This document shows positions 19,587 through 45,689 of a stretch of 64,000 nt of DNA, piece by piece. The translations under genes and the position numbers were made by a program. This stretch comes from Marinoscillum sp. Its GTDB lineage: Bacteria > Bacteroidota > Bacteroidia > Cytophagales > Cyclobacteriaceae. The notes under the pieces are model-generated. The model searched no databases. It saw nothing but the letters and a program-made list of their open reading frames with translations, and had not been told where the DNA came from. The stretch is taken from positions 1 to 64,000 of the forward strand of contig JAMWZA010000010.1 of NCBI GenBank assembly GCA_024305105.1, in the 5' to 3' direction. Numbering within the stretch: the first letter of the stretch is position 1; the number at the start of each line of letters is the position of its first letter.

Positions 19587-20342
19587 TTAACTCACTACGG
19601 ATTGATTCACCAGCTCGTTTATAGTCTTCTGTTTACCTAATCTGACCACCTCTCCTATTACAATAATAGCTGGCGATGAAAGCTTATGCTCTTCTACTTT
19701 TTGGACTACATCGTGTAGCTCAGTCAGGACAGATCGCTCGTTATCTCTACTGCCATTTTGTATGATACCAATGGCTTCATTAGCACCTCGGTTTTCTTCA
19801 AACAGTTCTACAATTTTAGGGAGATGTTTCATTCCCATGAGAATGACCACCGTGGCAGAAGACTGAGCAGCCAATGCCACGTCATTTGACAACTCAAAAT
19901 TGGAGGTGGTGCCTGTTACCACCCAGAAACTTTCATTTATTCCTCTCCTGGTTAATGGGATTTCACTCAATGCAGGTACGGAGATCGCACTGGTTATTCC
20001 TGGAATTACCTCGACATCCATGCCATGAGCACGTGCATGCTCCAGCTCTTCATGACCTCTACCAAATACAAACGGATCGCCACCCTTAAGACGCACCACG
20101 TGTTCGTAGTTCTTTCCATTGTCAACGATCATGTCGTTGATGTAAATCTGCTGGTACTGATGAATGCCGGGTTTTTTTCCTACGTAAACGAATTCGCATT
20201 CTGGCGTGCAATGCTCCAGTAAAGCAGGATTGGCTAAAGCATCATACAATACGACCTGAGCCCTATTTAGTGCCTTAATGGCTTTTAATGTGATTAAATC
20301 TGGATCCCCTGGTCCTGCACCTATTAAGTAAAGAGTAGACAT
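19587..20342 (-). CDS. cobA: Uroporphyrinogen-III C-methyltransferase (siroheme pathway)
   Basis: A 251-residue SUMT enzyme that methylates uroporphyrinogen III with SAM to precorrin-2, the first step towards siroheme. It shows V-x-L-I-G-A-G-P-G-D-P-D-L-I-T-L-K-A, R-L-K-G-G-D-P-F-V-F-G-R-G and P-G-I-T-S-A motifs and has the single-domain length. No oxidase/ferrochelatase (CysG N-terminal) part is fused, so those steps come from elsewhere. It is divergent from nirB and shares its promoter region, which holds two tandem TACGTA pairs. This fits supply of siroheme to NirB and co-control by nitrate. Confidence 0.94.
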   Translation of the reverse strand: MSTLYLIGAGPGDPDLITLKAIKALNRAQVVLYDALANPALLEHCTPECEFVYVGKKPGIHQYQQIYINDMIVDNGKNYEHVVRLKGGDPFVFGRGHEELEHARAHGMDVEVIPGITSAISVPALSEIPLTRRGINESFWVVTGTTSNFELSNDVALAAQSSATVVILMGMKHLPKIVELFEENRGANEAIGIIQNGSRDNERSVLTELHDVVQKVEEHKLSSPAIIVIGEVVRLGKQKTINELVNQSVVS

Positions 20343-20431: not shown

Positions 20432-22921
20432 ATGAAAAAGGTAATAGTCATTGGTAATGGAATGGTTGGCTACAAGTTTTGTGAAAAGCTCCGAGCCAAA
20501 GCCAAAGCAGATGAAGTGTCTCTGGTGGTATATGGAGAAGAGCCTATACCAGCTTATGATCGGGTCCATTTAAGTGAGTACTTTGAAAACCAATCCGCAG
20601 AGAAGCTCTACATGGCTCCAAGAAGTTGGTATGAGGAAAATGACATTACCTTGAAAACCGGTCAGCTGGTCACCAACATTGACCGAGAGTCCAGAGCGAT
20701 TGAGACACATACAGGAGAAAAGGAATCTTACGATTACCTCATTCTGGCAACTGGTTCCAGCGCCATGGTCCCCCCTATTACTGGAGTAGATAAAAAAGGA
20801 GTATTTGTCTACCGAACTATTGAAGACTTAGAACAAATCATCGATTATGCGCAGCACGCTAAAAGAGGAGCAGTGCTTGGTGGTGGATTACTTGGATTGG
20901 AAGCTGCCAAGGCACTTTTAGACCTGAAGCTGGACGCACAAGTAATCGAGTTTGCTCCGCGATTGATGCCAAGACAACTGGATGACTCAGGTTCCAATAT
21001 GCTGAAAAGCAAAATTGAATCGCTTGGCATTGAAATCCTTTTAAACAAAAACACGAAAGAAATCCATGGCAATGGAAAGTTGGATCGATTAGAATTCTCT
21101 GATGGCACCAGTCTGGAAACCGACATGTTAGTTATTAGCTGCGGAATCGTATCTCGAGATGAACTGGCCAAAACATGTGGTCTAGAGACTGGGCCAAGAG
21201 GAGGATTTGTGGTCAACGACCAGTTACAAACCAACGATCCATCTATCTATGCCATAGGGGAAGCAGCCAATTACAATGGGATGGTTTACGGCTTGGTAGC
21301 TCCGGGCTACGACATGGCGGAGACAGTAGTGGACCAACTTACAGGCGATCAATCCAAGCAGTTTTCTGGCGCTGATATGTCCACCAAACTGAAATTGATC
21401 GGTGTGGATGTGGGGAGTTTCGGAGATGCATTGGGGCAATCAGAAGGCTCCATTCCCATCGCATTTGAGGACAAGAGTGCCGGTGTCTACAAGCGCATCA
21501 ACTTATCCGCTGATAAAAAGAAATTACTGGGAGGCGTGTTGGTAGGAGATTGCGCGGATTATAGCATGCTCCTTCAAATCACTCAAAATGGCATGGCAGT
21601 TCCGCCCAACCCTGAAGACCTAATCCTGGGAGCACGTGGAGCCGGTGGTGGTAACTCCATAGCAGATCTTCCAGACAGTGCTCAAATTTGTTCTTGTGAA
21701 AACGTGACCAAATCGGCTATTGTCTCTGCCATAAAAGACGATGGTATTACAGATCTCAAGGAAATCAGAACATGTACCAAAGCAGGAACAGGTTGTGGCG
21801 CATGTTCACCGATGGTTGGTGATATCGTCAGCGCTACACTGAAGTCCATGGGACAAAGCGTCCGGAAAACGCTTTGCGCACATTTTGACTATACACGACA
21901 GGAACTCTACAGCCTGATCAAAATAAAGGAAGTGAAGTCATTCAATGACCTACTCAATCAGTATGGTAGAGGTGATGGGTGTGAGACGTGTAAGCCTGCA
22001 GTTGCTTCATTGATGGCCAGCATCTGGAATGAACCTATCCTTAAGCAAGACACCATTCAAGATACAAATGATCGATTTTTAGCGAATATTCAAAAAGGTG
22101 GAAGCTACTCCGTAGTACCAAGAGTGCCAGCCGGAGAGATTACTCCCGACAAACTGATTGTCATCGGGCAGGTAGCCAAAAAATACGATCTATATACAAA
22201 AATAACCGGAGGCCAGCGTATCGATTTGTTCGGCGCAAAGCTGAACGATCTTCCAAAAATCTGGCGTGAACTTATTGATGCAGGTTTCGAAAGTGGTCAT
22301 GCCTACGGAAAATCCTTACGAACAGTGAAAAGCTGCGTTGGGTCCACCTGGTGTCGATATGGCCTGCATGATTCCGTAAGTTTTGCTATCGAAATTGAAA
22401 ACCGGTACAAGGGCCTACGCTCACCGCACAAACTCAAAGGTGGAGTTTCCGGCTGTAGACGTGAATGTGCCGAAGCACAGGGAAAGGACTTTGGTCTGAT
22501 GGCTACAGAGATCGGCTATAACCTTTATGTCTGCGGAAATGGTGGTGCTAACCCGCAACATGCCAAACTACTGGCTGGTGATGTAGACGAAAAAACAGCC
22601 ATCAAATACCTCGACCGATTCCTTATGTTTTACATCCGTACTGCAGAGCCCCTAAACAGAACTTCTGTATGGCTAAACAAGCTGGAAGGGGGAATTGACT
22701 ACCTGCGTGAGGTGGTAGTAAATGATTGTCTGGGATTAGGTGATGAATTGGAAAAAGACATGCAAGCACTCATCGCAGCATACCACTGTGAATGGAGAGA
22801 GGCAGTAGAAAACGAAGATATGAAACAAAAATTCAGACACTTCGCCAACAGTGAAGCAGATGATCCAACACTTCAATTTGTGCCAATGCGCGAAATGAAA
22901 AAACCAGCTGATTGGGATTGA
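20432..22921 (+). CDS. nirB: Nitrite reductase (NAD(P)H) large subunit
   Basis: An 829-residue cytoplasmic enzyme reducing nitrite to ammonium. Domains: an N-terminal FAD/NAD(P) pyridine nucleotide-disulfide oxidoreductase fold (V-I-G-N-G-M-V-G-Y; second dinucleotide site G-G-G-L-L-G-L-E), a BFD-like [2Fe-2S] segment near residue 425-470 (C-S-C-E-N-V ... C-x-x-C), then the nitrite/sulfite reductase half-domains. The [4Fe-4S]-siroheme ligands are intact: Cys635, Cys641, Cys675, Cys679. The length is normal for NirB/NasB. It is followed after 21 bp by nirD. Siroheme would be supplied through the divergent cobA. Confidence 0.96.
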   Translation: MKKVIVIGNGMVGYKFCEKLRAKAKADEVSLVVYGEEPIPAYDRVHLSEYFENQSAEKLYMAPRSWYEENDITLKTGQLVTNIDRESRAIETHTGEKESYDYLILATGSSAMVPPITGVDKKGVFVYRTIEDLEQIIDYAQHAKRGAVLGGGLLGLEAAKALLDLKLDAQVIEFAPRLMPRQLDDSGSNMLKSKIESLGIEILLNKNTKEIHGNGKLDRLEFSDGTSLETDMLVISCGIVSRDELAKTCGLETGPRGGFVVNDQLQTNDPSIYAIGEAANYNGMVYGLVAPGYDMAETVVDQLTGDQSKQFSGADMSTKLKLIGVDVGSFGDALGQSEGSIPIAFEDKSAGVYKRINLSADKKKLLGGVLVGDCADYSMLLQITQNGMAVPPNPEDLILGARGAGGGNSIADLPDSAQICSCENVTKSAIVSAIKDDGITDLKEIRTCTKAGTGCGACSPMVGDIVSATLKSMGQSVRKTLCAHFDYTRQELYSLIKIKEVKSFNDLLNQYGRGDGCETCKPAVASLMASIWNEPILKQDTIQDTNDRFLANIQKGGSYSVVPRVPAGEITPDKLIVIGQVAKKYDLYTKITGGQRIDLFGAKLNDLPKIWRELIDAGFESGHAYGKSLRTVKSCVGSTWCRYGLHDSVSFAIEIENRYKGLRSPHKLKGGVSGCRRECAEAQGKDFGLMATEIGYNLYVCGNGGANPQHAKLLAGDVDEKTAIKYLDRFLMFYIRTAEPLNRTSVWLNKLEGGIDYLREVVVNDCLGLGDELEKDMQALIAAYHCEWREAVENEDMKQKFRHFANSEADDPTLQFVPMREMKKPADWD

Positions 22922-22942: not shown

Positions 22943-23317
22943 ATGAGCCAACAAACACTCAATTACAAAACCATAGAACCTAATCAGGTAAAGACATGGT
23001 ACGAAGCCTGTAAGGAAGAGCAATTCCCATCTGATGGTGGATTGTGTGTAGAGTTCGAAGGGTTGCAAATAGCCATTTTCAACTTCTCACGGCGTAAGAA
23101 ATGGTACGCTACACAAAATCTTTGCCCGCACAAAAAGCAAATGATCCTATCCAGAGGAATGTTGGGGTCAGAAGGAGAAGAACCCAAAGTGGCTTGCCCG
23201 TTTCATAAAAAGACCTTTTCTCTGGAATCAGGTGCTAACCTTAATGGACATGAATGCGCATTAGCCACCTACCCTATCAAAGTGGAAGAGGGCGTGGTTT
23301 ACGTAGGTTTAGGGTAA
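22943..23317 (+). CDS. nirD: Nitrite reductase small subunit, Rieske type
   Basis: A 124-residue Rieske-fold protein directly after nirB. It has an intact [2Fe-2S] Rieske pattern: Cys61 and His63 in C-P-H, and Cys85 and His88 in C-P-F-H. Many NirD proteins, including that of E. coli, lack these ligands, so this subunit probably carries a real cluster. It is expected to associate with NirB and pass electrons or stabilise it. Confidence 0.92.
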   Translation: MSQQTLNYKTIEPNQVKTWYEACKEEQFPSDGGLCVEFEGLQIAIFNFSRRKKWYATQNLCPHKKQMILSRGMLGSEGEEPKVACPFHKKTFSLESGANLNGHECALATYPIKVEEGVVYVGLG

Positions 23318-23369: not shown

Positions 23370-23399
23370 GCTCCATCAAAATCGGTGTACACATCGCTC

Positions 23400-29574: not shown

Positions 29575-30960
29575 ATGAGATTAGTCAAAAGCACATTTAT
29601 ACTTGCCGCAATGGCGATCATCTGGACAGCATGTACAGGTGGCACAGCAAAAAACAAAACAGCCGATTTGGAGGAATCAAAAGAATCCTCCTCCAAGCTG
29701 ATGATTGAGAAGCCACAGCTTACATTTGGTTTCATCAAATTAACCGACATGGCTCCACTGGCCATCGCCAAAGAGCTTGGTTACTTTGAGGATGAAGGTC
29801 TTTACGTAACGATTGAAGCGCAATCCAACTGGAAAAATGTTCTCGATAGAGTCATCGACGGACAGCTGGACGGGTCCCACATGTTGGCCGGTCAGCCGAT
29901 TGCAGCAGGAGCCGGATTTGGCCGTCAAGCCGAATTGGTGACGCCATTTTCAATGGATTTAAATGGCAATGGAATTACCGTATCGAATGAAGTTTGGTCT
30001 GCAATGAAACCGAATGTTCCACAAGATGCTGAGGGCAAACCCATACATCCAATAAAAGCAGATGCCCTGGCTCCAGTCGTGAAAGACTTTAAAAACGCCG
30101 GACGTCCATTCAAAATGGGCATGGTATTTCCAGTGTCCACACACAACTACGAGATTCGCTACTGGTTGGCAGCAGCCGGAATCAATCCGGGCTTTTATAC
30201 TGCCGAAAATATCCAGGGCCAGGTAGACGCAGATGTGTTGCTATCCGTAACTCCTCCACCACAGATGCCCGCCACACTGGAAGCCGGAACCATCTTTGGA
30301 TACTGTGTGGGTGAGCCATGGAACCAGCAAGCCGTTTTTAAAGGAATCGGAGTACCCGTAACAACCAACTACGACATCTGGAAAAACAACCCGGAAAAAG
30401 TCTTTGTGATGACTAAGAAGTTCGTAGACGAAAACCCGAACACCGCCATTGCTGTAACCAAAGCACTGATCAGGGCCGCCAAATGGTTGGACACCCCAGG
30501 TAACAGACCAGAAGCAGTTGGCATTCTTTCCATGCCGCAGTATGTGGGAGCGGATTCGATCGTTATCGCCAACTCCATGACAGGAACCTTTGAATTTGAG
30601 AAGGGTGACAAACGAGAAATGCCTGACTTTAACGTTTTCTATCGCTACAACGCCACGTACCCATTCTATTCAGATGGCATCTGGTTCCTGACTCAAATGA
30701 GAAGATGGGGTCAAATCCCGGAAAGCAAGCCAGCCGACTGGTACCACAGCACCATCAAGGACATCTATCGTCCGGATATCTGGAAACAGGCTGCTGATAT
30801 GCTAGCTGAAGAAGGCAAGATTCCAACTTCTGATATTCCTGAAACAGATGGGTACAAGACTCCTTCGAGTGACTTTATTGATGGCACCACCTATGATGGA
30901 AAAGACCCGATTGGGTATGTCAACAGCTTCGAAATTGGCAATAAGGACGAGAGTTTGTAG
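29575..30960 (+). CDS. nrtA: Nitrate ABC transporter substrate-binding lipoprotein
   Basis: A 461-residue NrtA/CmpA-type binding protein. The N-terminus is a lipoprotein signal with Cys21 in W-T-A-C, followed by an acidic/Ser-rich linker. The mature part begins [19 protein letters not shown] and contains H-M-L-A-G-Q-P and [12 protein letters not shown], all typical of nitrate- and bicarbonate-binding NrtA/CmpA. Nitrate is favoured because of the neighbouring nitrate and nitrite reductase genes. It would bind nitrate in the periplasm and deliver it to NrtB. Confidence 0.93.
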
Positions 30961-30963
30961 GAC

Positions 30964-31138
30964 TGTCAAGTCTCAAACGAAGATGCTGAAACAAGTTCAG
31001 CATGACCAAAAAAACAGGGATCAAGACTTGACAATTTCAATCTCAAAAAATAGACGTTGGTGTCTGAGGGTTTGGCTCGCCCAGCCCTCGCACCAACTTC
31101 ATTCCAAAATATTTATAGCTTCATAAAATACCAACGTC
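30964..31138 (+). promoter_or_regulatory. Structured nrtA-nrtB intergenic region with competing hairpins
   Basis: Three nested or competing structures are visible. First, arms 30964-30973 and 31024-31033 are perfect 10-bp complements and enclose an 8-bp stem-loop at 30983-31003. Second, GTTGGTG (31056-31062) pairs with CACCAAC (31091-31097), extended inside by GAGGG/CCCTC. Third, GACGTTGGT (31053-31061) is also perfectly complementary to ACCAACGTC (31130-31138), the nine bases just before the nrtB ATG. The second and third structures exclude each other, which is the layout of an attenuator or translational switch. A dispersed extragenic repeat is the alternative. Confidence 0.55.
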
Positions 31139-32236
31139 ATGAAGGACAAATCAATCAAAACATTAAAGATGTTCGGGCTCGGCTTCCTGGAGCCTTTGAT
31201 CCGAATATTTAGCGGTGAAGAGCCTGCCAAAAACGGTAAAATCTTCTTCACTCGGGCGCTATTGCCTTTACTTTCCATTTTTGTATTCATTGCTATCTGG
31301 CACGCAGGCGCCATGGCGCTTTACAACAGTGAAGCAGATGCCCGAATAGAAAAAGCACGTGAAGAACAAGGGGAAGAAGCCGCCATTGCCATGCAGGAAT
31401 GCATCGAATCTGGCGATATCTCCTGCCAGCCCAACACACTGCCATCACCAGCGCAAGTCTATGGCGCATTCCAGGCATTGTGTCAAGATCATCAGAGCAT
31501 CAGCGAAAAGAAAGACGACTTCAAAGAGCGCGTTTCTGAAACCAACGAACAACGCGAGGCACAGGGACTGGATCCCATTACCTACACGGGAAGACCTTCA
31601 TTTCTAGACCAGATTGGCACGAGCCTGAAAACCGTTTTTGCCGGATGTCTCCTGGCCATGTTTATCGCCGTACCTATCGGGATTATCATTGGTTTGAGTC
31701 CATCGTTAAGAACGTCATTCAACTGGCTCATTCAGATTTTAAAACCGGTTTCTCCGGTAGTCTGGCTGTTGCTCGTCTTTATGATTGTGAAAACAGTCAT
31801 CACCGATCCTAGTCTCGACAAATCATTCATTATTTCCTTCATCAGTGTGGGACTATGTGCCATGTGGGCAACATTGGTCAACACCAGCATGGGCGTGAGC
31901 ACTGTAGACAAAGATTTCATCAATGTGGCCAAAGTATTGAAACTCAATATTGGACAAAACATCTTCAAAATCATTCTTCCAGCCTCTTTACCATTGATTT
32001 TCACTGGATTACGCATTACAGTCTCTGTGGCCTGGATGGTGTTGATCGCCATCGAACTACTGGCACAAAGCCCGGGTCTTGGGTCATTTGTATGGGAAGA
32101 ATTCCAAAACGGTGCGAATGACTCCAATGCCAAAATCATTGTGGCCATGTTCGTCATCGGGCTTATCGGATTTCTGCTTGACAGAATCATGCTGAGTGTA
32201 CAAAATATGATGAGTTTCAATAAAGGAATGGCATAA
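31139..32236 (+). CDS. nrtB: Nitrate ABC transporter permease
   Basis: A 365-residue inner-membrane permease. One N-terminal membrane helix (about 41-60) is followed by a charged periplasmic stretch of roughly 90 residues, then the five-helix permease core with the binding-protein-dependent transport signature near the C-terminal half ([16 protein letters not shown]). Family members are usually about 270-300 residues, so the periplasmic insert is an extension. The stop overlaps the next ATG by one base (TAATG). Confidence 0.9.
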
Positions 32237-33114
32237 TGGCAATACTGGAATTAAACAATGTTTCAAAATCCTTCGGCGTGGGGTCTAACAAGATCGACGT
32301 GCTTACAGACATCAATCTAAGCGTTAATGAAGGAGAGTTTTTAGCAATCGTTGGGTTTTCGGGTAGCGGTAAAACCACCCTCATCAACCTAATCAACGGA
32401 CTACATTTTCCCGACCAGGGAGAGGTACTCTTAAAAGGAAATCCGATTGTTGGGCCGGGCCCGGATAGAGGAGTGATTTTTCAGAACTATTCATTACTAC
32501 CCTGGCTGTCTGTTTACAGCAATGTAAAACTCGCCGTGGATGAAGTGTTCCCAAAAATGTCTCGATCAGAGAAGGAGGCACACATTTTGAAATACATCGA
32601 AATGGTGAACCTCACACCCGCCCGGGATAAAAAACCATCTGAACTATCGGGAGGCATGCGCCAGCGGGTATCTGTAGCCAGAGCACTGGCCATGAACCCG
32701 GAGATGCTCCTGATGGATGAGCCACTAAGCGCACTGGATGCTCTGACGCGTGGGTCACTACAGGAAGAAATCATCAAGATCTGGAGTCAGAACAAGAAAA
32801 CTGCCGTGCTCATCACCAACGACGTGGATGAAGGCATCTTGATGGCAGACCGCATCATTCCACTCACGCCAGGCCCGAATGCCACACTCGGACCAGAATT
32901 CAATGTGCCGTTTGAGCGGCCCAGAGATGTGACCAACATCAACAAAGACGAGCAGTATAAGCGCTTACGCAACGAGATTCTGGAGTACCTGATAGAAGTG
33001 GGGTCCACCAGAAGACAGGTGAGTGACCAGAAATACATTTTGCCGGACCTGAAACCAACCATGCCTGGTCGCATACGCCTGGGCCGGAAAAAGCAGAAAG
33101 TAAAGTATTTCTAA
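32236..33114 (+). CDS. nrtC: Nitrate ABC transporter ATPase (first)
   Basis: A 292-residue ATPase with Walker [10 protein letters not shown], the Q-loop block [13 protein letters not shown] signature L-S-G-G-M-R-Q-R, and Walker [12 protein letters not shown]. Cyanobacterial NrtC has an added C-terminal NrtA-like regulatory domain of several hundred residues; this protein has only a short basic tail (R-L-G-R-K-K-Q-K), so that regulatory part is absent. The symbol follows operon order. Confidence 0.85.
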
Positions 33115-33176
33115 ATCGCTACATGCCAGAGCCAGCATTCAAAATCAATTCCTTAAAGCACTAAGAACTCAACACC

Positions 33177-33992
33177 ATGCAAACACAACTTCAAGCAGTT
33201 CCCACCATGCCAGAGCCGGTTGCTCGGCCAGACATGCTGGTCTGCCAGGACTTAAAAAAAGTATATCCCACGCCAACGGGCGATTATGTGGTACTGGACG
33301 ATCTGCAACTTTCGATTAAGGAAAGTGAGTTTGTCTCGATCATCGGCCACTCGGGTTGTGGTAAATCAACCTTGCTTACCATGATCGCGGGTCTCAATGA
33401 AATCAGCGGTGGGCAAATTATCGTGGATAAAGATCCCGTACGCGAGGCAGGTCCAGACCGGGCGGTGGTTTTTCAGTCACCCAGTTTGCTTCCATGGCTC
33501 ACTGCCTTGCAAAATGTGATGATTGGGGTAAAGCAAGTATTCCCCAGTGCATCCCGAGCAGAAAAAGAAGAAATCTGCAAATACTATCTGGACAAAGTTG
33601 GGCTTGGAAATGACTTTCATAAAAGAGCCACGGACTTATCACAGGGTATGCAGCAGCGGGTGGGAATCGCCAGAGCATTTGCCCTGAAGCCTAAAGTACT
33701 ACTCCTCGACGAACCCTTTGGGATGCTGGACTCACTCACGAGAGGAGAACTTCAGGATGTACTGCTAGAGATCTGGCAAAAGGAAAAAATTACGGCTGTG
33801 GCAATCACCCACGATGTGGATGAATCCATTTTTCTGGCCGATCGGGTGATCATGATGACCAGTGGGCCTTATGCGAAGATTGGCGATGAGCTGGAGATCC
33901 CTTTCGAGCGACCAAGGAATCGCAAGGAAGTACTGGAGCATCCGGATTACTACGATTACCGGGCGTATTTGCTCAATTTTCTGAATCACTAA
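33177..33992 (+). CDS. nrtD: Nitrate ABC transporter ATPase (second)
   Basis: A 271-residue ATPase with Walker A G-H-S-G-C-G-K-S-T, Q-loop F-Q-S-P-S-L-L-P-W-L, signature L-S-Q-G-M-Q-Q-R and Walker B L-L-L-D-E-P-F-G-M-L-D. The signature reads L-S-Q-G instead of L-S-G-G, a change also common in NrtD proteins. It presumably forms a heterodimer with the first ATPase on NrtB. A strong terminator follows. Confidence 0.88.
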   Translation: MQTQLQAVPTMPEPVARPDMLVCQDLKKVYPTPTGDYVVLDDLQLSIKESEFVSIIGHSGCGKSTLLTMIAGLNEISGGQIIVDKDPVREAGPDRAVVFQSPSLLPWLTALQNVMIGVKQVFPSASRAEKEEICKYYLDKVGLGNDFHKRATDLSQGMQQRVGIARAFALKPKVLLLDEPFGMLDSLTRGELQDVLLEIWQKEKITAVAITHDVDESIFLADRVIMMTSGPYAKIGDELEIPFERPRNRKEVLEHPDYYDYRAYLLNFLNH

Positions 33993-37227: not shown

Positions 37228-38577
37228 ATGGAAACAAGTAAAAACGGCAGAGCCAAAAAGATTGAACTTTTCAACCTCAAATCCATCAACATGCGGGTTT
37301 TTCACCTGACATGGATGGCTTTTTTCCTTTGTTTTTTCGGCTGGTTCGGGATCGCTCCGATGCTCGCCATTGTCCGGGAAGACCTGGGCATCACCACCGA
37401 TCAGATAGTCAACACCAACATGATCGCTGTGGCTTCTACTGTTTTCATGCGACTGATAATAGGTTGGTTGTGCGACCGGATAGGCCCTCGAATAACCTAT
37501 ACCTGGTTGCTAATCCTTGGCTCCATTCCGGTCATTATGATCGGAATGGTCCAAAATTATGAGCAATTTCTTATCGCGCGTATGTTTATCGGAGCAATAG
37601 GCGCAGGTTTTGTCATCACACAGTTTCATACCTCAGTGATGTTCGCTCCCAATATAGTTGGAACCGCCAATGCCACTACTGCCGGCTGGGGAAACCTGGG
37701 TGGTGGCGTGACACAGCAGGTGATGCCACTGATCTTTGCTGCAGTTGTCGCATATACAGGTTCAGAATTTCTGGCCTGGAGACTTTCCATGATTGGACCG
37801 GGGATCATGCTTTTCATCATGGGGATCGTCTACTACTACTTCACTCAAGACACTCCAGCAGGAAACTACAAGAGCCTGGACAGTAAAAAGAAAGAGAATA
37901 AATCAAAAGACAGCATTGGCAAGGTCCTAAAGGACCACAAGGTTTGGTTACTGTTTCTAATCTATGGCGCGTGCTTTGGTGTGGAACTTATCGTCAATTC
38001 TAAGGCCGCGCTGTATTTTATTGACTACTTCGATATGAATATTCAAACAGCAGGACTCATCGCCGGACTTTTTGGTTTGATGAATTTATTTGCCCGCTCA
38101 CTTGGAGGCTTCTTTGGTGATCGATTTGGCAAAAGCGGAGGACTAAAAGGCCGGGTTAAGTGGCTCTTTGTCACATTGTTCATAGAAAGTCTGGCATTGA
38201 TTCTCTTTTCCAGAATGGGTACGATACCAATGATCATTGTCTCGCTGTTACTGTTCAGTCTGTTTGTGCAAATGAGCGAAGGCGCCACTTACAGTGTAGT
38301 TCCTTTTGTCAATAAAAAAGCGCTGGGGATGGTTTCAGGAATAGTTGGCGCTGGAGGAAATGCAGGTGCTGTTGCAGGAATGCTCCTATTCAAAAAGCAG
38401 CTGACCGGTCTTGAATGGACGGATTCGTTTTTTGTGCTGGGCTTTATTGTCATGGCCGTTTCTTTCTCCACTTTCCTCATTCGATTCTCTAAAAAAGCAG
38501 AGGTCATCGCTCGTAAGGAAACTCGAGCTAAAAAAGAAGAAATCATTCAGCTACAGCCCGAACTCGTCACTTCATAA
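37228..38577 (+). CDS. narK: NarK-family nitrate/nitrite transporter
   Basis: A 449-residue major facilitator protein of the nitrate/nitrite porter family with 12 predicted membrane helices. It has the nitrate signature A-G-W-G-N-L-G-G-G-V-T-Q (around residue 150) and a second glycine-rich block (G-A-G-G-N-A-G-A-V-A-G). It imports nitrate or exchanges nitrate for nitrite across the inner membrane. It is first in a three-gene run with the nitrate reductase and the rubredoxin protein, under a TACGTA cluster. It duplicates the function of the NrtABCD system 4 kb away. Confidence 0.94.
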   Translation: METSKNGRAKKIELFNLKSINMRVFHLTWMAFFLCFFGWFGIAPMLAIVREDLGITTDQIVNTNMIAVASTVFMRLIIGWLCDRIGPRITYTWLLILGSIPVIMIGMVQNYEQFLIARMFIGAIGAGFVITQFHTSVMFAPNIVGTANATTAGWGNLGGGVTQQVMPLIFAAVVAYTGSEFLAWRLSMIGPGIMLFIMGIVYYYFTQDTPAGNYKSLDSKKKENKSKDSIGKVLKDHKVWLLFLIYGACFGVELIVNSKAALYFIDYFDMNIQTAGLIAGLFGLMNLFARSLGGFFGDRFGKSGGLKGRVKWLFVTLFIESLALILFSRMGTIPMIIVSLLLFSLFVQMSEGATYSVVPFVNKKALGMVSGIVGAGGNAGAVAGMLLFKKQLTGLEWTDSFFVLGFIVMAVSFSTFLIRFSKKAEVIARKETRAKKEEIIQLQPELVTS

Positions 38578-38588
38578 AAATATTACTC

Positions 38589-41500
38589 ATGCCACAAAAA
38601 TGGGGAGAACCACATAAGACTGTTTGCTCATACTGCGGAGTAGGGTGCGGCATTAAGGTGCGTAAAAGCAACAAAGGTCGATTGCAGCTGGAAGGTGATG
38701 CTGACTATCCGGTCAACAAAGGCATGCTCTGCTCGAAGGGCATGAACCTTCACTACACCACCATGGACCAAAGTGACCGTCTCCTCAAGCCTCAGATGCG
38801 GTGGAGTAGGCGACATCCCATGCAGGATGTGGACTGGGATACGGCTATTAACAGGGCCGCAGCAGTTTTCAAGACATTTATTCGTGAGCATGGCCCGGAC
38901 AGTGTAGGGTTGTATGTCTCGGGACAGTGCCTCACGGAAGAATACTACCTGGCCAACAAGCTTGTTAAAGGATTTATCGGCACCAATAACATTGATACCA
39001 ACAGCCGGCTGTGCATGAGCTCGGCGGTAGTGGGTTATAAAGAAACCGTGGGTGATGATGCCGTGCCTATATCGTATGAGGATATCGAGTTATCAGATAC
39101 CATCCTTATTGCAGGTGCTAATCCTGCGTGGTGTCACCCCATTCTCTTTAGACGAATTGAGAAGCACAAAGCGGAAAATCCCAATGTAAAAATCATAGTG
39201 GTAGACCCACGGGTGACCGATAGCTGCGCACTGGCAGATATTCACTTACAAGTCCAGCCAGGCACCGATATGGAACTGTTCCATGCCATTGGATTCTACC
39301 TGGTAGAACATGGCTTAGTTGATGACGAATTTGTCCGAAAGCACACCAATGGTTACGAAGCTTATCTAAAGGAAATTCGCTCGAAATCACTAAAAGAATA
39401 CGCCGCAATATGTGATGTGTCGGTTGAGGACATCATTCATACTGCTCGGTTAATTGGGCAGTCCAAGGGATTCATCACCATGTGGGCCATGGGACTCAAT
39501 CAGAGTACGGCCGGAGTTAACCAAAACCTGGCGCTCATCAACCTCAATCTGATCACTGGAAAAATAGGAAAACCTGGTTCGGGTCCCTTTTCTCTGACAG
39601 GTCAGCCCAATGCCATGGGTGGACGTGAAGTCGGTGGGCTCTCCAATCTATTAGCAGCACATAAAAACCTCGCTAATCCGGCACATCGACAGGAAGTAGC
39701 CGATTTCTGGGGTGTGGATTCCATTCAGGAGAAACCAGGCCTTACGGCAACAGAAATGTACGAAGCGCTCAAATCCGGAAAAATGAAGGCTGTATGGGTT
39801 ATTTGTACCAATCCGTCCGTGAGCATGCCCAATGCAAGACTCGTTGATGAAGCATTAAAGGCCGCCAAATTTGTCATCGTTCAAGACATTTCTAAAAATA
39901 GTGACACAGTAAAATATGCCGATTTGGTTCTTCCTGCAGCAGGTTGGCTGGAAAAGGAAGGCACCATGACCAACTCCGAACGGCGCGTGACATACTTACC
40001 AAAAGTAATAGATGCTCCGGGTGAGGCCCTTCCCGACTCAGAAATCATTATGCGATTTGCCAGGGCCATGGGATATCATGGGTTTGACTTCAACAATGCT
40101 TCAGAAATTTATGACGAGTATGCTCGCATGACCAAAGGAACTCCGATAGATGTATCAGGACTCTCCTATGAAAAACTAAAAATGCACCGGTCCATTCAAT
40201 GGCCGGTGCCTTCTGAAGACCATGAAGGTACGCCACGCCTTTTTGAGAATGGAAAGTTTTTAACTCCAGACCATAGAGCCAACATCCATACCGCTGGTCC
40301 TTCACTTCAGCAAGAGCCTACGAATCCGGAATTTCCATTGATACTGACCACCGGAAGGGTTCGTGACCAGTGGCATACCATGACACGAACGGGGAAAGTT
40401 GCTAAGCTCAACAAACACATCGATCGACCATACCTTGAAATCCACCCCGATGATGCAGAGTCTCGAAAAATAAAAGATGGTGCACCCGTTAAAATAAGAA
40501 ATTCAAGAGGTGAAGTTCAGGTCTCGGCAAAGATCACGGATAGCATCAAGAAAGGAGTTGTTTTTCTGCCCATGCATTGGGGAAAGCGACTCAATCACGA
40601 CTTAAACCGTGCCAACAACCTTACCAGCGATGCGGTGGACCCTAAATCGAAACAACCTGGATTTAAGTATGCTGCCGTGGAAGTCGCTCTATATCAACCA
40701 CCGAAACAAAAAATTGTAGTGGTCGGAGCGGGAGCTGCAGCCTATCGGTTTGTGAATACTTACCGGGAGTTTAACCAATCAGATGAAATTCATGTGTTTT
40801 CGAAAGAGGAGTGGCCATTTTACAATCGGGTATTACTACCTGATTATGTCAATGAAACCAAAGAGTGGGAAGATTTGGTCAAATACACGGAAGAGGAATT
40901 ACGTCAACTCGACCTGGTCATGCATCCTTCGAATCCCATAACGTCCCTCGATCGAACGACAAAAATGGTAACGGATAGCCAGGGAAACCAACATGCTTAC
41001 GATACGCTTATTGTTGCAACTGGAAGTCGGGCATTTGTGCCCCCAAACGCTCCAATGGACCTTCCCGGAGTATTCACCATGCGTGATCGTACCAATGCAG
41101 ACGACCTCAAAAAACAGGTCTGCCCGGGGAGTCATGTCTTGATCATTGGAGGTGGACTACTTGGTCTGGAGCTTGCTGCAGCCCTTACCGAAATACAAGT
41201 AAACACCACTATTGTACAGCTAGGCTCACGACTGATGGAGCGTCAGTTAGACCCGGTGGCAAGTGCCATGCTAAGAGAATATGTGGAAGACCTTGGAGTC
41301 CGTGTGTTCACGAACGATGAAGTGACGGATATTAATGAAAACACCGAAAAGCTCCTGGATGTCACGTTAAAAAGTGGTCATGCTGTAACCGCCAATGCAG
41401 TCGTTTATGCCATTGGCACCAGACCTAACACACAACTGGCCGTAGATAGCGAGCTGGAATGTGGACGTGGAGTAAAAGTGAATGATTACCTACAGACCAG

Positions 41501-42101
41501 CGATCCTTCCATCTTCGCCCTTGGTGAAATAGCCGAGCATCATCGCAAAATGAATGGCATCACCGCAGCTGCTGAACAACAAGCGGATATTTGCGCGCGT
41601 TTTATCGCCGGAGATCCTTCACAGTATTATCAAGGCACTACACCGATGAACATCCTCAAGTTTCCAAGTCTGGATCTGTGCTCCGTCGGGCTGGCCGAAA
41701 TTCCAGTGAATGGAAAAGGATATAGTGAGATTACATTTCTAGATCGTGAAGCGCTATTTTACAAAAAATGTATCGTTCACAATGACAAACTTGTTGGCAC
41801 CATTCTTCTCGGAGATAAGACCGAATTTGCGGAGTACAAAGAACTGATTGATAGTGGTACCGAATTGTCAGAAAAACGAATGCAACTCTTGCGATCTGGT
41901 CAGGCTCCAGCAGCAGCCAAAGGAAAACTTGTCTGCTCGTGTAATAATGTGGGTGAAGGGAATTTGACAGAAGCTATCGCACTTGGACACGATAATCTTA
42001 ACAGTCTCTGCCAGGAAACGGGTGCCGGACTGGGGTGTGGAAGTTGTAAATCTGAAGTAAAACGATTGATCGACCGATCGGTACAAACGGTCAGCAGTTA
42101 G
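38589..42101 (+). CDS. nasA: Assimilatory nitrate reductase fused to a flavoprotein module
   Basis: A 1170-residue cytoplasmic Mo-bisPGD enzyme reducing nitrate to nitrite. N-terminal [4Fe-4S] ligands: Cys13, Cys16, Cys20, Cys48. The probable Mo ligand is Cys142 in R-L-C-M-S-S. The catalytic core runs to about residue 700. It is followed by a complete FAD/NAD(P)-binding oxidoreductase of the NirB/NasB N-terminal type (V-V-G-A-G-A-A-A-Y; G-G-G-L-L-G-L-E) and a BFD-like [2Fe-2S] end (Cys1116, Cys1118, Cys1150, Cys1153). Usually the flavoprotein is a separate subunit (Klebsiella NasC, Bacillus NasB) or absent. The fusion should take electrons directly from NAD(P)H. It starts 11 bp after narK. 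Confidence 0.92.
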   Translation: MPQKWGEPHKTVCSYCGVGCGIKVRKSNKGRLQLEGDADYPVNKGMLCSKGMNLHYTTMDQSDRLLKPQMRWSRRHPMQDVDWDTAINRAAAVFKTFIREHGPDSVGLYVSGQCLTEEYYLANKLVKGFIGTNNIDTNSRLCMSSAVVGYKETVGDDAVPISYEDIELSDTILIAGANPAWCHPILFRRIEKHKAENPNVKIIVVDPRVTDSCALADIHLQVQPGTDMELFHAIGFYLVEHGLVDDEFVRKHTNGYEAYLKEIRSKSLKEYAAICDVSVEDIIHTARLIGQSKGFITMWAMGLNQSTAGVNQNLALINLNLITGKIGKPGSGPFSLTGQPNAMGGREVGGLSNLLAAHKNLANPAHRQEVADFWGVDSIQEKPGLTATEMYEALKSGKMKAVWVICTNPSVSMPNARLVDEALKAAKFVIVQDISKNSDTVKYADLVLPAAGWLEKEGTMTNSERRVTYLPKVIDAPGEALPDSEIIMRFARAMGYHGFDFNNASEIYDEYARMTKGTPIDVSGLSYEKLKMHRSIQWPVPSEDHEGTPRLFENGKFLTPDHRANIHTAGPSLQQEPTNPEFPLILTTGRVRDQWHTMTRTGKVAKLNKHIDRPYLEIHPDDAESRKIKDGAPVKIRNSRGEVQVSAKITDSIKKGVVFLPMHWGKRLNHDLNRANNLTSDAVDPKSKQPGFKYAAVEVALYQPPKQKIVVVGAGAAAYRFVNTYREFNQSDEIHVFSKEEWPFYNRVLLPDYVNETKEWEDLVKYTEEELRQLDLVMHPSNPITSLDRTTKMVTDSQGNQHAYDTLIVATGSRAFVPPNAPMDLPGVFTMRDRTNADDLKKQVCPGSHVLIIGGGLLGLELAAALTEIQVNTTIVQLGSRLMERQLDPVASAMLREYVEDLGVRVFTNDEVTDINENTEKLLDVTLKSGHAVTANAVVYAIGTRPNTQLAVDSELECGRGVKVNDYLQTSDPSIFALGEIAEHHRKMNGITAAAEQQADICARFIAGDPSQYYQGTTPMNILKFPSLDLCSVGLAEIPVNGKGYSEITFLDREALFYKKCIVHNDKLVGTILLGDKTEFAEYKELIDSGTELSEKRMQLLRSGQAPAAAKGKLVCSCNNVGEGNLTEAIALGHDNLNSLCQETGAGLGCGSCKSEVKRLIDRSVQTVSS

Positions 42102-42117
42102 GTATATTTGTTAAGCT

Positions 42118-43533
42118 ATGATGCAGGTAAAGGACTTAATTCGTGTATTTGTCAAAGGTGGAATCATCTCTCCGGGAGATTTCCTGAAAGTGCTTCTGAT
42201 TGCTGAAAAGCTCGGCTCTCAATACTTGCACCTGGGATCGAGACAAGATATTCTATTTGCTGCCAAGGAAAAGAGCAAAGAGATTCTGGACGAAACGTTC
42301 CAGTCCATTAGGACGGAGTATGAAATCAACACATTCGATTATCAGAACATTTTAAGCAGCTATGTTGCTTTGGATATCCTGCCAGGCAAGAAGTGGTTGG
42401 CATCTCACATCTATCACTATATTCTTAACAGTCTGGACTACCGAGCGAAGCTGCGAATCAACGTAGTAGACCCATCGCAAAGTCTGGTCCCACTCTTTAC
42501 AGGGCAGGTAAATTTTATCGCTTCCGGTCAAGAAAACTACTGGTATGTATATCTCCGATTTAAGCGGATACAGCATGCTCCCTGGCAAATGCCTTTGTTG
42601 GTGTACACCGAGGATCTTGTGAAGATTGCGAAAGCTCTGGAAGAAAATAGCGTGACAACAAACAACTGGGATTACAAGGACATTTTTACCTTTCTGACTG
42701 AGAACGTAAAAATGAACACGCAGCCTGTCACAGAGAACTTGGTTCTACCGGAAACACACTTTCCGTACTATGAAGGAATCCACCGACAGGCAGACGAAAA
42801 ATATTGGCTAGGACTCTATTGGCGTAATAACCAATACAAAATTGAAACGCTTAAGGCCATTATGGAGCGTTGCATAGAGACAGAGGTCGGAAAAGTAACC
42901 TTAACTCCATGGAAGTCCTTTGTGATCAAAGGCATCCTGGAAAAGGATCGGCTGGGATGGGAAAAACTGATGGGGAAATTTGGAATGAACCTACGGCACT
43001 CTGCCTTAGAACTCAACTGGCATCTACCAGCTCTGGACCAGGAGGCGCTCGATCTTAAGTTTTATTTGGTTCGGGAACTGGACAAACAAGATATCAGCAC
43101 CTACGGGCTGACTTTCACCATCAAGACTTCCGAAGACATTACCCTTTTCACATCGGTGGTGATCGAAAAAGGGGAAGATCAGGATATGTACAACATACTT
43201 TACAGCAAAAACTTCAACCCAAACCTGACAGACTATCGGTACTATGCCAAAGACGTTCACAAATCCGTTTTGGCTCCGTTGATCGTTGAATTGAGTCTGG
43301 TGTATTACGAGAGTCTAAATGAAGAAACTCAGGAGTCTCCCAAGGTAAAATCGATTCGCGATAACATTGAAAAGGAATTGTTTCAGTGTATTCATTGCCA
43401 AACGGTTTATGACTCAGAATATGGAGACCCGGAAGCATCTATTCAATCAGGTATAGCATTTTCAGCACTGCCTGCTGACTATGTTTGTCCAACATGCGGT
43501 GGCAAAAAAGAAGGGTTTCAGAAGATGAAGTAG
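42118..43533 (+). CDS. Rubredoxin protein with cysteine-less nitrite/sulfite-reductase-like fold
   Basis: A 471-residue protein, 16 bp after the nitrate reductase gene. The C-terminus is a rubredoxin (Cys424, Cys427, Cys457, Cys460; D-Y-V-C-P-T-C-G). The rest resembles nitrite/sulfite reductase: an early G-G-I-I-S-P-G-D-F-L-K half-domain ending L-H-L-G-S-R-Q-D, and a second block V-T-L-T-P-W-K-S-F-V-I-K, as in siroheme enzymes and CobG. However, it has only one cysteine outside the rubredoxin, so the [4Fe-4S]-siroheme site is missing. I infer a non-catalytic NiR/SiR relative used for electron transfer or docking in nitrate reduction. A member of an unnamed family in nitrate operons is likely. 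Confidence 0.75.
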   Translation: MMQVKDLIRVFVKGGIISPGDFLKVLLIAEKLGSQYLHLGSRQDILFAAKEKSKEILDETFQSIRTEYEINTFDYQNILSSYVALDILPGKKWLASHIYHYILNSLDYRAKLRINVVDPSQSLVPLFTGQVNFIASGQENYWYVYLRFKRIQHAPWQMPLLVYTEDLVKIAKALEENSVTTNNWDYKDIFTFLTENVKMNTQPVTENLVLPETHFPYYEGIHRQADEKYWLGLYWRNNQYKIETLKAIMERCIETEVGKVTLTPWKSFVIKGILEKDRLGWEKLMGKFGMNLRHSALELNWHLPALDQEALDLKFYLVRELDKQDISTYGLTFTIKTSEDITLFTSVVIEKGEDQDMYNILYSKNFNPNLTDYRYYAKDVHKSVLAPLIVELSLVYYESLNEETQESPKVKSIRDNIEKELFQCIHCQTVYDSEYGDPEASIQSGIAFSALPADYVCPTCGGKKEGFQKMK

Positions 43534-43536
43534 GAA

Positions 43537-44085
43537 TCAATCCAGATCTTCGGGCGTGTTTACATTCTTTAACTCGGCATTGTCCTTAGGAGACACAGTT
43601 TTTACCTTACACTGTTTGAGCACTCGCTGGAGGCCGTACAGACCCATTTCGATGGCGTCAAGCACCACTCGAAAGGACGTGGGTTGGTAAATAGTTACTG
43701 TCGTTTCCAGATAATCGCTCCCTTCGGGCTGATAGGTAATGATATCATGTTCTTCATCGGCAGCTTCAATCAGACGCTTCAACGTATCCTGAGTCACATT
43801 TACCAAATCACAGGCCACGATTAACCAGGACTCCTCCGGACGGTGATTGATCGCTGAAACCAACCCGCCAATGGGACCGATGGCATCATACTGATCTACC
43901 AGTTTATAATGGCTCTCAGGAAGATCTCGATATTGTTCCACATTACACGACACACATACGTCTAAACCCATGTCAGTCAACATGTTGTAAAGGTGATGGT
44001 ACTGTGTACGGCCATTCACATCTAATAAGTGTTTTTCAGCACCCATGCGCTGACTCTTTCCTCCGATTAGCAACAATGCTTTCAT
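43537..44085 (-). CDS. mobA: Molybdenum cofactor guanylyltransferase
   Basis: The ATG at 44085 (182 residues, M-K-A-L-L-L-I-G-G) is preferred over a TTG nine bases upstream. The nucleotide-binding motif L-L-I-G-G-K-S-Q-R-M-G-A-E-K and the C-D-L block are typical of MobA, which links GMP to molybdopterin to make the bis-MGD cofactor needed by the nitrate reductase. The gene is convergent with the nitrate operon (3-bp gap) and is read from the trehalase side, 5 bp after its stop; co-transcription with two unrelated lipoprotein genes is unusual. Confidence 0.9.
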   Translation of the reverse strand: MKALLLIGGKSQRMGAEKHLLDVNGRTQYHHLYNMLTDMGLDVCVSCNVEQYRDLPESHYKLVDQYDAIGPIGGLVSAINHRPEESWLIVACDLVNVTQDTLKRLIEAADEEHDIITYQPEGSDYLETTVTIYQPTSFRVVLDAIEMGLYGLQRVLKQCKVKTVSPKDNAELKNVNTPEDLD

Positions 44086-44090
44086 GCTTT

Positions 44091-45689
44091 TCAATATACT
44101 GGATTTTCAGATAGTAAACCAAGTGCTACGCCATTCGTCCACCCAAAACCATCCTGAGTGGGGTATTCGCCACCTCCGGCATTTAAGGTTGTATCAGATA
44201 CATTATACTTCTCCATCATCTTACCGGTATTCCGATACACTTTCTTATTTACCTGAAGCCATCGGGCAGCCACATCAGCCGCCAAATCACCTTCACCGTA
44301 ATGCTCCATACCCTTGATGCCAATCCATTGTAGTGGTGCCCAGCCATTCGGAAAATCCCACTGCTGACCAGACTCTATGGAAGTAGTAACCAACCCGCCT
44401 GGTTGAAGCAAATTGCTTTTTATATACGAAATCGTCCGAGCTGCTTGTTCATCGGTCGCTGTATTAAAATAAAGTGGATATGCGGCAGCCATGGTCACCT
44501 GATCCTCTAGAATATCTTCAGTCCATACATAATCTGTAAACGCACCTTTTTCTTCATTCCAAAAAACCCGCTGTATTGCGGTCAGGCGGTTTGCAGCTTT
44601 TGCTGCATATTCATCGGCTTTGTCCATATTTCCCTCATGGGCATACATTCTGTTCAAAATCACCTCCACACCGTGTAGTAAGCAATTGAGGTCCACTGGT
44701 AGTATTTCGGTCGTCCGAATGGTGGCGAAATCTTCTTTGTCTTTAAACCATCTGGTACTGTAATCCCAACCAGATTCAGCACCGGCTCTCAGATTCCGGT
44801 AAAGGGTACTTTTTTCCTCCGTTGATAACTCCTCGGCCAGCTCAAAGTCTTCTTTGTGAGACTCCGGTCGTGGAAAATCCAGTAAATCGTAATACCGATT
44901 CAAAACAAGTGAATCACCAACGAGTATGGCTCTATTCACCGCCACATTGGATGGTGTAAGCTGGTCAGCTCCTTGCATCCAGAAGTTATACTCCTTCTCA
45001 ATCATGGGGAGATACCTTACGGCCTTATCCAGGGAAGCGAGTTGCGCATATAAGTTCACCATTTGAGCAAAATAAGGCGGCTGACTTCTGCCAAGATAAT
45101 AAGTCCTGTTTCCATTTGGGATAAACCCAACCGTATCAATCAGGTAAGCAAAATTGTCCACCATCAACTCCACCAGGTCGGTTCTTCCTGAAACTCCGAG
45201 TCCAATCATTGTGAAATAGCTATCCCAATAATAAATTTCACGGAAACGGCCACCAGGTACTACATATTGACCGGGTAGCGAGATTAAGGTAGAAATGGCA
45301 GAAGTGTCACTTGCCTCTCTGGTCAGGTCTACCCACATGTTGTCCAAATGCTCTTTAAAGAATTCATTCTCCTCAATATTCTTCACTTCAGGGCTTACAG
45401 GTTCCTCAAAATTCGCCTTCACAAAAGCCTCTAAATCAAAGTCAGGGTTGTTCTTAACCTCCTCGTACTTCTCAGCAATTTCGTAGGGATTGCTTTTTGG
45501 GGTACAATCCACAAACGTTTTGGAATCTGGAAACACGCCGGCCATTTGTACATCATGAAAAAGTGGCCCTAATGACTGCCAGGGCTGATAAAAACCTTCC
45601 TGCTGTGGGGTTTCCTTTGCTGGCTGGCAAGAATACAAAAATAGCAGTACCATGAGGCCTGCTATTTTAATGGGGTTCAATAAATTCAT
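44091..45689 (-). CDS. treA: Trehalase (GH37) lipoprotein
   Basis: A 532-residue family 37 glycoside hydrolase that splits trehalose to two glucose units. Both family signatures are present: P-G-G-R-F-R-E-I-Y-Y-W-D-S-Y and Q-W-D-F-P-N-G-W-A-P. Additional core blocks are D-S-K-T-F-V-D and G-G-G-E-Y. A lipobox (L-Y-S-C, Cys21) indicates membrane anchoring, so it acts outside the cytoplasm. It lies 10 bp after a haloperoxidase-like gene and 5 bp before mobA. Confidence 0.94.
   Translation of the reverse strand: MNLLNPIKIAGLMVLLFLYSCQPAKETPQQEGFYQPWQSLGPLFHDVQMAGVFPDSKTFVDCTPKSNPYEIAEKYEEVKNNPDFDLEAFVKANFEEPVSPEVKNIEENEFFKEHLDNMWVDLTREASDTSAISTLISLPGQYVVPGGRFREIYYWDSYFTMIGLGVSGRTDLVELMVDNFAYLIDTVGFIPNGNRTYYLGRSQPPYFAQMVNLYAQLASLDKAVRYLPMIEKEYNFWMQGADQLTPSNVAVNRAILVGDSLVLNRYYDLLDFPRPESHKEDFELAEELSTEEKSTLYRNLRAGAESGWDYSTRWFKDKEDFATIRTTEILPVDLNCLLHGVEVILNRMYAHEGNMDKADEYAAKAANRLTAIQRVFWNEEKGAFTDYVWTEDILEDQVTMAAAYPLYFNTATDEQAARTISYIKSNLLQPGGLVTTSIESGQQWDFPNGWAPLQWIGIKGMEHYGEGDLAADVAARWLQVNKKVYRNTGKMMEKYNVSDTTLNAGGGEYPTQDGFGWTNGVALGLLSENPVY

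Follow-up and report, generated by a model that had tools for sequence, protein, structure and literature searches.

In the Paracoccus nasABGHC system, the accessible portions of two reports describe NasG as an electron carrier common to the NADH-dependent nitrite reductase and the nitrate reductase (PMC4724949, PMC6618116). For the Bacteroidota, the accessible part of a report on Dyadobacter mentions nirB, an 'additional copy' of nirB, and narK, and does not contain the word 'rubredoxin' (PMC12584681). This additional nirB copy may be a fused NasA of the kind described below. A search of titles and abstract openings in the open-access literature found no paper describing the protein analysed here, which we call NiR-Rd. 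Two annotated relatives, on Spirosoma and Hymenobacter plasmids, are labelled just 'rubredoxin' and lie beside a 'nitrate reductase'.

The window, a stretch of 64,000 nucleotides from Marinoscillum sp. (Bacteroidota; contig JAMWZA010000010.1), contains a nitrate assimilation cluster (Table 1) in which NiR-Rd, a single-copy gene in the source genome, starts 16 bases past the stop codon of the molybdopterin nitrate reductase NasA, directly behind it as originally predicted. The FAD modules of both NasA and NirB carry the Pfam domain Rubredoxin_C, and NasA also matches the model for NorW, the NADH:flavorubredoxin reductase, at 1.6e-53, which lies under that model's cut-off. In Spirosoma a gene annotated cobA adjoins nirB. 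The cluster also holds an outer-membrane protein of the 'alginate export' family (28285-29547), which may be a nitrate porin; relatives recur in the nitrate clusters of several other loci (L008, L015, L064 and L099 among them). PilJ-domain proteins in the nitrate clusters of two further loci (L003:1100-1990 and L006:3309-4235) match the window's histidine kinase (23385-25172) at its N-terminal end, and no kinase domain was found in these stand-alone proteins. A gene of 269 aa lies between NasA and NiR-Rd in one genus, g7 (L061:7627-8436 and L092:3272-4081); it had no Pfam match over the cut-off, with one weak nucleotidyltransferase-like match in L061.

Table 1. Features of the nitrate cluster in the window, and NasA copies of other loci that end before the BFD domain
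Feature	Position	Strand	Basis and remarks
CobA-type tetrapyrrole methylase, probable siroheme supply for NirB	19587..20342	-	Pfam TP_methylase; specific name inferred from place
NirB, NADH nitrite reductase large subunit	20432..22921	+	FAD module, BFD, siroheme/4Fe-4S domain; Pfam, PF01077 match
NirD-like Rieske small subunit	22943..23317	+	Pfam Rieske_2
Probable nitrate ABC importer genes (substrate-binding, permease, two ATPases)	29575..33992	+	Pfam; the names NrtA-D are our own
NarK-family nitrate/nitrite transporter	37228..38577	+	NCBIfam TIGR00886 above cut-off
NasA, molybdopterin nitrate reductase	38589..42101	+	N-terminal [4Fe-4S]; NirB-like FAD module with Rubredoxin_C, BFD [2Fe-2S]; Pfam, NCBIfam
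NiR-Rd (siroheme-reductase-fold protein, C-terminal rubredoxin)	42118..43533	+	ORF, 471 aa; Pfam, AlphaFold2 fold, hhalign
NiR/SiR-like region, residues 1-407	42118..43338	+	NirA-like fold without the four cluster cysteines; Pfam NIR_SIR_ferr, VIA-align, hhalign
C252	42871..42873	+	Sole Cys outside the rubredoxin in the window protein
Rubredoxin domain, residues 422-467	43381..43518	+	Four Cys ligands in two CxxC pairs; Pfam, VIA-align
MobA-like NTP transferase, probable Mo-cofactor gene	43537..44094	-	Convergent with NiR-Rd; Pfam NTP_transf_3
BFD-less second NasA paralogue, in NirB cluster	L085:11623-14994, L087:2869-6240, L088:2600-5959		Beside NiR-Rd

Both parts of NiR-Rd were recognised by Pfam: NIR_SIR_ferr matched in two half-domain stretches (E 3.1e-10, above the gathering score) and Rubredoxin at residues 422-467 (E 5.6e-15). 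No Pfam match was obtained to the NIR_SIR 4Fe-4S domain (PF01077) or to any Rieske or Fe-S ferredoxin family, 'ferredoxin-like' being, for the half-domains, the name of a fold. NCBIfam gave weak partial matches to CysI, CobG and NirA, and PHROGs gave none. The two motifs quoted in the original prediction are present, as G14-G-I-I-S-P19 in half-domain 1 and L262-T-P-W-K-S267 in half-domain 2.

A match of the predicted structure to the nitrite/sulfite reductase (NiR/SiR) fold had been set beforehand as a test. AlphaFold2 without an alignment gave a useless model (pLDDT 37.7); with a 23-sequence alignment that included the window, the model reached pLDDT 79.0 and pTM 0.68. When this model was searched against the PDB with Foldseek, the top matches included the hemoprotein of sulfite reductase, at E 1.7e-15 and prob 1.00, and NirA of M. 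tuberculosis, at E 2.3e-14. Superposition of residues 2-296 on NirA (1zj8_A) by VIA-align gave Z 23.3 and 3.2 A over 284 residues. VIA-align hardly reaches residues 297-407, for which the evidence is the profile alignment together with a stretch of the model that has lower confidence.

That alignment was made with hhalign from 46 family sequences (window included, the partial L021 dropped) against 20 NirA/SiR sequences, the latter drawn from 24 siroheme-enzyme loci minus three NirB and L084, which failed the motif filter. It placed NiR-Rd 2-407 colinearly onto NirA 121-579 with a probability of 96.6% and E 6.4e-10. In the controls E was 0.36 for the reversed profile, 0.075-0.74 for five profiles with shuffled columns and 0.31 for a NasA profile; with the best decoy at 0.075, chance resemblance is ruled out. 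An earlier run with shallow alignments had been colinear and weak (prob 27%, E 7e-4). The alignment around K111-N115 shifts by two residues between the shallow and deep runs, and nothing is drawn from it. Direct PDB sequence searches matched only the rubredoxin region, both with NiR-Rd itself (among the best 60 of 70 matches) and with profile A1, from which the near-copies L019 and L020 were left out (among the best 60 of 66). Descent of NiR-Rd from an assimilatory siroheme nitrite or sulfite reductase is thus well supported, by sequence profile and predicted fold.

The four cysteines that hold the [4Fe-4S]-siroheme centre (CxxxxxC and CxxxC) were found in all 20 NirA/SiR sequences and have no aligned counterpart in NiR-Rd. 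In the window protein there is no cysteine between C252 and the rubredoxin, and among 63 relatives no column of that interval has cysteine in more than 20. Several basic residues of NirA, which we take to be binders of the siroheme carboxylates or the substrate, have changed as well: R197 and R237 are mostly Q/N/P and P, respectively, and the segment with R323, R327 and K329 (all in L058 numbering) is unaligned. Because the four cysteines and several conserved arginines are lost in the alignment, a coupled [4Fe-4S]-siroheme centre of the known type cannot be expected, as had been predicted. A NirA gene damaged by sequencing errors is ruled out by the recurrence of the pattern in 46 aligned sequences, and a nitrite reductase of known kind by the loss of the cluster cysteines. 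By its body NiR-Rd descends from the siroheme reductases without counting among their working members, and the description of a retired siroheme enzyme, with a rubredoxin fused to a NiR/SiR-like fold without the cysteines of the centre, is well supported by Pfam, predicted fold, profile homology and alignment.

Other ancestral residues were kept. In the 46 aligned sequences G15, R42, Q43 and N77 are each present in 46 and R9 in 41, with K in four; counted over the wider set of relatives, R42, Q43 and N77 are retained in 62 of the 62 that cover them, and position 9 holds R or K in 59 of 63. A further set is newly invariant or nearly so: W93, N115, D118, G129, N132, S136, W142, P216-G220, G232, Y234, R236, C252, K266, E298, L313, K314 and T328. 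The NiR-like part is strongly constrained. For these conservation and count sets, L043 and L046-L048 were removed, being the same genes as L064, L063, L062 and L061.

The window protein has five cysteines: C252, then C424, C427, C457 and C460 in the rubredoxin domain. This domain superimposed on the solved rubredoxin 1rdg with Z 11.4 (52 residues at 0.7 A), and the model range 419-471 gave about Z 11 against solved rubredoxins. The complete pattern of two CxxC pairs was found in 58 of 63 relative ORFs; it is shortened to CxxC..CxxC in three (L061, L092, L093) and absent in two (L062 and L097), L097 ending early in an assembly with other broken genes. Judged by its sequence, the tail is a true rubredoxin domain, whose metal may also be Zn. 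The original prediction of a single cysteine before the rubredoxin is exact for the window protein and atypical of the family: C252 is conserved in 62 of 63 relative ORFs, the exception being the divergent copy of L089, and in 53 of 63 a cysteine also occupies the position of residue 249. In the aligned relatives a CxxC pair in half-domain 2 (window 42862-42873) is the common state, and the window, which keeps the second cysteine only, is the exception. Finding both cysteines in most relatives left the odds of the readings discussed below unchanged.

The distribution of NiR-Rd was followed in 448 distinct Bacteroidota genomes, made up of a sample of 296 and one of 164 from the window's order, with 12 genomes in both, four of these positive. 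NiR-Rd was present in 84 of the 448, and 83 of the 84 also have a NasA with the FAD module together with NirB, in agreement with the predicted co-occurrence with fused NasA. In none of the 448 was NirB found without NiR-Rd. The sample of 296 contained a long NiR-Rd match in 23 genomes, fused NasA in 27 and full-length NirB in 22, these last being the NiR-Rd genomes minus G126; of the 79 genomes with any match there, 56 matched through the rubredoxin only (at E 7.6e-14 or weaker) and were left uncounted. In the order sample NiR-Rd occurred in 65 genomes, NirB in the identical 65, and FAD-module NasA in those and in G431. Fisher p-values of this co-occurrence are not evidence per genome, because the sampled genomes are related.

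A NasA was scored as fused when the match ran into the FAD module and beyond residue 1100, with tables read by eye; counted as exceptions were G371 (match ending at 951, its NirB cut by the contig start, 280-829), G382 (on two contigs), and G367 and G408 (in two reading frames). Piecewise hits of one gene were merged for the locus counts, and distances to NirB were counted for one NiR-Rd per genome, the nearer where there were two. The systematic sampling covers the Bacteroidota, and the scan of genome contigs detects close relatives only. A plasmid scan gave four full-length NiR-Rd matches, all in Bacteroidota, and ten rubredoxin-only matches in Rhodococcus. One locus (L002) with cluster proteins 74-89% identical to those of the window stands in a record titled 'Rickettsiales bacterium', probably a mislabelled Bacteroidota MAG.

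In the order sample NasA lies directly upstream of NiR-Rd, on the same strand and within 600 bases, in 56 of 71 loci, and NiR-Rd does not directly follow NasA in the other 15. In 17 of 65 genomes NirB and NiR-Rd lie on separate contigs, and in two others the distance between them is 156 kb and 754 kb; these unlinked cases rule out pure physical hitch-hiking.

Several exceptions are informative. Five genomes (G008, G050, G155, G179 and G219) have fused NasA with neither NirB nor NiR-Rd, and in each a gene for a NirA-type enzyme lies no more than about 3 kb from NasA. The five NasA group in a single clade (support 1.0) and so amount to one evolutionary contrast. The loci concerned (L057:9669-13619, L056 and L058-L060) present a second kind of nitrate cluster in Bacteroidota, in which fused NasA is accompanied by NirA in place of NirB and NiR-Rd; at least in L057 a flavodoxin and a FAD/NAD reductase lie beside NirA and NasA, and the reductase was confirmed in another NirA-type genome. 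Two genomes with sequences at contig ends also depart from the rule: G431 has a NasA cut by the contig end, with neither NirB nor NiR-Rd found, and G126, which has neither of the two reductases, carries at a contig end a NiR-Rd relative without rubredoxin. The original assignment of NiR-Rd to nitrate reduction holds in so far as NasA accompanies it in 83 of 84 genomes, but it is too narrow: NirB is tracked at least as tightly, and the five NirA-type genomes have NasA without NiR-Rd.

In genus g196 (G380, G410 and G417), a second NasA, 48-49% identical to that of the window, ends before the BFD domain. For the L085 copy Pfam confirmed that BFD is absent and Rubredoxin_C kept. Each of these BFD-less copies has a NiR-Rd with intact rubredoxin 23-26 bases downstream, and the three genomes have one NirB and two NiR-Rd, one beside or near each of the two NasA. 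BFD is absent in three and present in 40 of the 43 NasA examined, a set that excludes the window's NasA and a fourth second copy (G441); the loss represents one lineage. A second NiR-Rd copy with altered rubredoxin was seen in G430 (L094:3907-5322), with no NasA-like gene within the surrounding 9 kb.

From these observations we infer that NiR-Rd would be a retired siroheme reductase that now serves the NADH-dependent NasA-NirB system as a subunit for electron relay or docking, and we give this reading as a whole a probability of about 0.5. NirB presumably performs nitrite reduction, NiR-Rd having lost the coupled centre. The old NiR body would serve as a docking scaffold, with a docking specificity inherited from the ancestral reductase, and would present the rubredoxin to the FAD modules of NasA and/or NirB, which are of the rubredoxin-reductase/NorW type. 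There the rubredoxin would accept single electrons from NADH-reduced FAD and relay them to the [4Fe-4S]/Mo centre of NasA, perhaps also to NirB, a relay that would keep nitrate and nitrite reduction balanced.

This reading, which the original prediction had offered as an electron carrier or docking subunit, is favoured because one NasA lineage lost its [2Fe-2S] domain while the neighbouring NiR-Rd kept the rubredoxin, because the FAD modules of NasA and NirB carry Rubredoxin_C and NasA resembles NorW, and because co-occurrence is strict even where NirB is unlinked and most copies lie directly behind NasA. Counting against it, fused NasA already has its own FAD, plus BFD in nearly all copies, and the two contig-end genomes and the loci apart from NasA do not fit. 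Since the five NirA-type genomes have fused NasA without NiR-Rd, the relay is no general requirement of NasA.

The NirB co-occurrence, which is slightly stricter than that with NasA, could instead mean that NiR-Rd has NirB as its docking partner, or links it to NasA, and hands over nitrite or gates NirB, with the rubredoxin a structural part or minor carrier. Retention of the pocket residues, without exception for R42, Q43 and N77 among relatives that reach these positions and usually for R9, is consistent with this, as are a NiR-Rd that directly follows NirB, not NasA, in L090 (G405) and the divergent copy 3' of NirB in L089 (G385). On the other hand, the usual place of NiR-Rd is directly behind NasA, and where two NasA share one NirB there is a NiR-Rd for each NasA. 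We consider a partner on the NirB side possible, if on the unlikely side.

Mo-cofactor genes adjoin some copies, such as the MobA-like gene in the window and a Radical_SAM/Mob_synth_C gene in L085, and the accessible part of one report states that Paracoccus NasC requires the chaperone NarJ (PMC6618116). A maturation factor, that is, a reductase mimic that aids Mo-cofactor insertion into NasA or siroheme insertion into NirB while its rubredoxin senses redox state or metal, might be imagined on these grounds. It is improbable, given that NirA-type genomes have the same fused NasA without NiR-Rd and that a rubredoxin kept beside BFD-less NasA points to electron flow.

Strict conservation of W93, N115, D118, W142, R236, K266 and E298, with the second cysteine in most relatives, exceeds what a passive scaffold needs. 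From sequence, the pocket residues R9, R42, Q43 and N77 and the CxxC may mark a place in the NiR part where a cofactor binds or redox chemistry occurs, which qualifies the carrier or docking reading. In its furthest form, this part would bind siroheme or another cofactor without a cysteine-linked [4Fe-4S] cluster, or use the CxxC, and be fed by its own rubredoxin; NiR-Rd would then be a cluster-free siroheme-type enzyme or a nitrite/NO-handling site, an obligatory third component of the NasA-NirB system, for which we see only a slim chance. That NiR-Rd is still an enzyme, with a new ligand or the CxxC at work and the rubredoxin replacing the lost cluster as internal donor, has a precedent in the class III hybrid cluster protein, where a rubredoxin is fused to a catalytic body, and would fit the retained pocket, the paired cysteines of most relatives and the new invariant residues. 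The four cysteines and the basic residues R197, R237 and R323/R327/K329 of NirA are nevertheless substituted or unaligned, and NirB is on hand for the known reaction, so that we hold this to be very doubtful. A decaying relic hitch-hiking in the operon would account for the rubredoxin lost or shortened in five of 63 copies but is scarcely credible in view of the many invariant residues over 46-47 aligned sequences and the strict co-occurrence, unlinked cases included.

The relay or docking reading is accordingly the one we retain: NiR-Rd probably assists nitrate and nitrite reduction in the Bacteroidota by supplying the two reductases with electrons, and is at even odds an electron-transfer partner of assimilatory nitrate reduction, of unusual origin. 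If so, nitrate assimilation in Bacteroidota would use a component absent from the open-access papers found, and the conversion of a siroheme reductase into an electron-relay or docking subunit would be a clear test case for the evolution of an enzyme into a carrier. The label 'rubredoxin' on its relatives would be corrected, and the sharing of NADH electrons between NasA and NirB explained for this phylum.

Compared with known systems, NiR-Rd is closest in build to NirA and the sulfite reductase hemoprotein (PDB 1zj8, 2akj, 4g39), with which it shares the fold, colinear sequence over ~400 residues and the residues R9, R42, Q43 and N77; it differs in lacking the four cysteines, in the replaced or unaligned arginines and in the added rubredoxin. 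A complete rubredoxin attached to a larger redox-protein body is also found in flavorubredoxin NorV and the class III hybrid cluster protein, but the body of NiR-Rd is neither a flavodiiron protein nor a hybrid cluster protein, having instead a NiR/SiR fold without its centre. The BFD [2Fe-2S] domain of NasA and NirB is likewise a probable one-electron relay next to a FAD module, and is absent in one NasA lineage that has NiR-Rd; it is fused in cis and belongs to another family, with another cofactor, than the rubredoxin. Paracoccus NasG is a ferredoxin with a structure unlike that of NiR-Rd, and the window differs further in having a FAD module within NasA itself and, in addition, a NirD-like Rieske protein encoded separately. 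To our knowledge, the NasG ferredoxin has no relation to NiR-Rd. What the two would share, as far as the accessible descriptions of NasG go, is the role proposed here, that of conveying electrons from the site where NADH is oxidised to both reductases.
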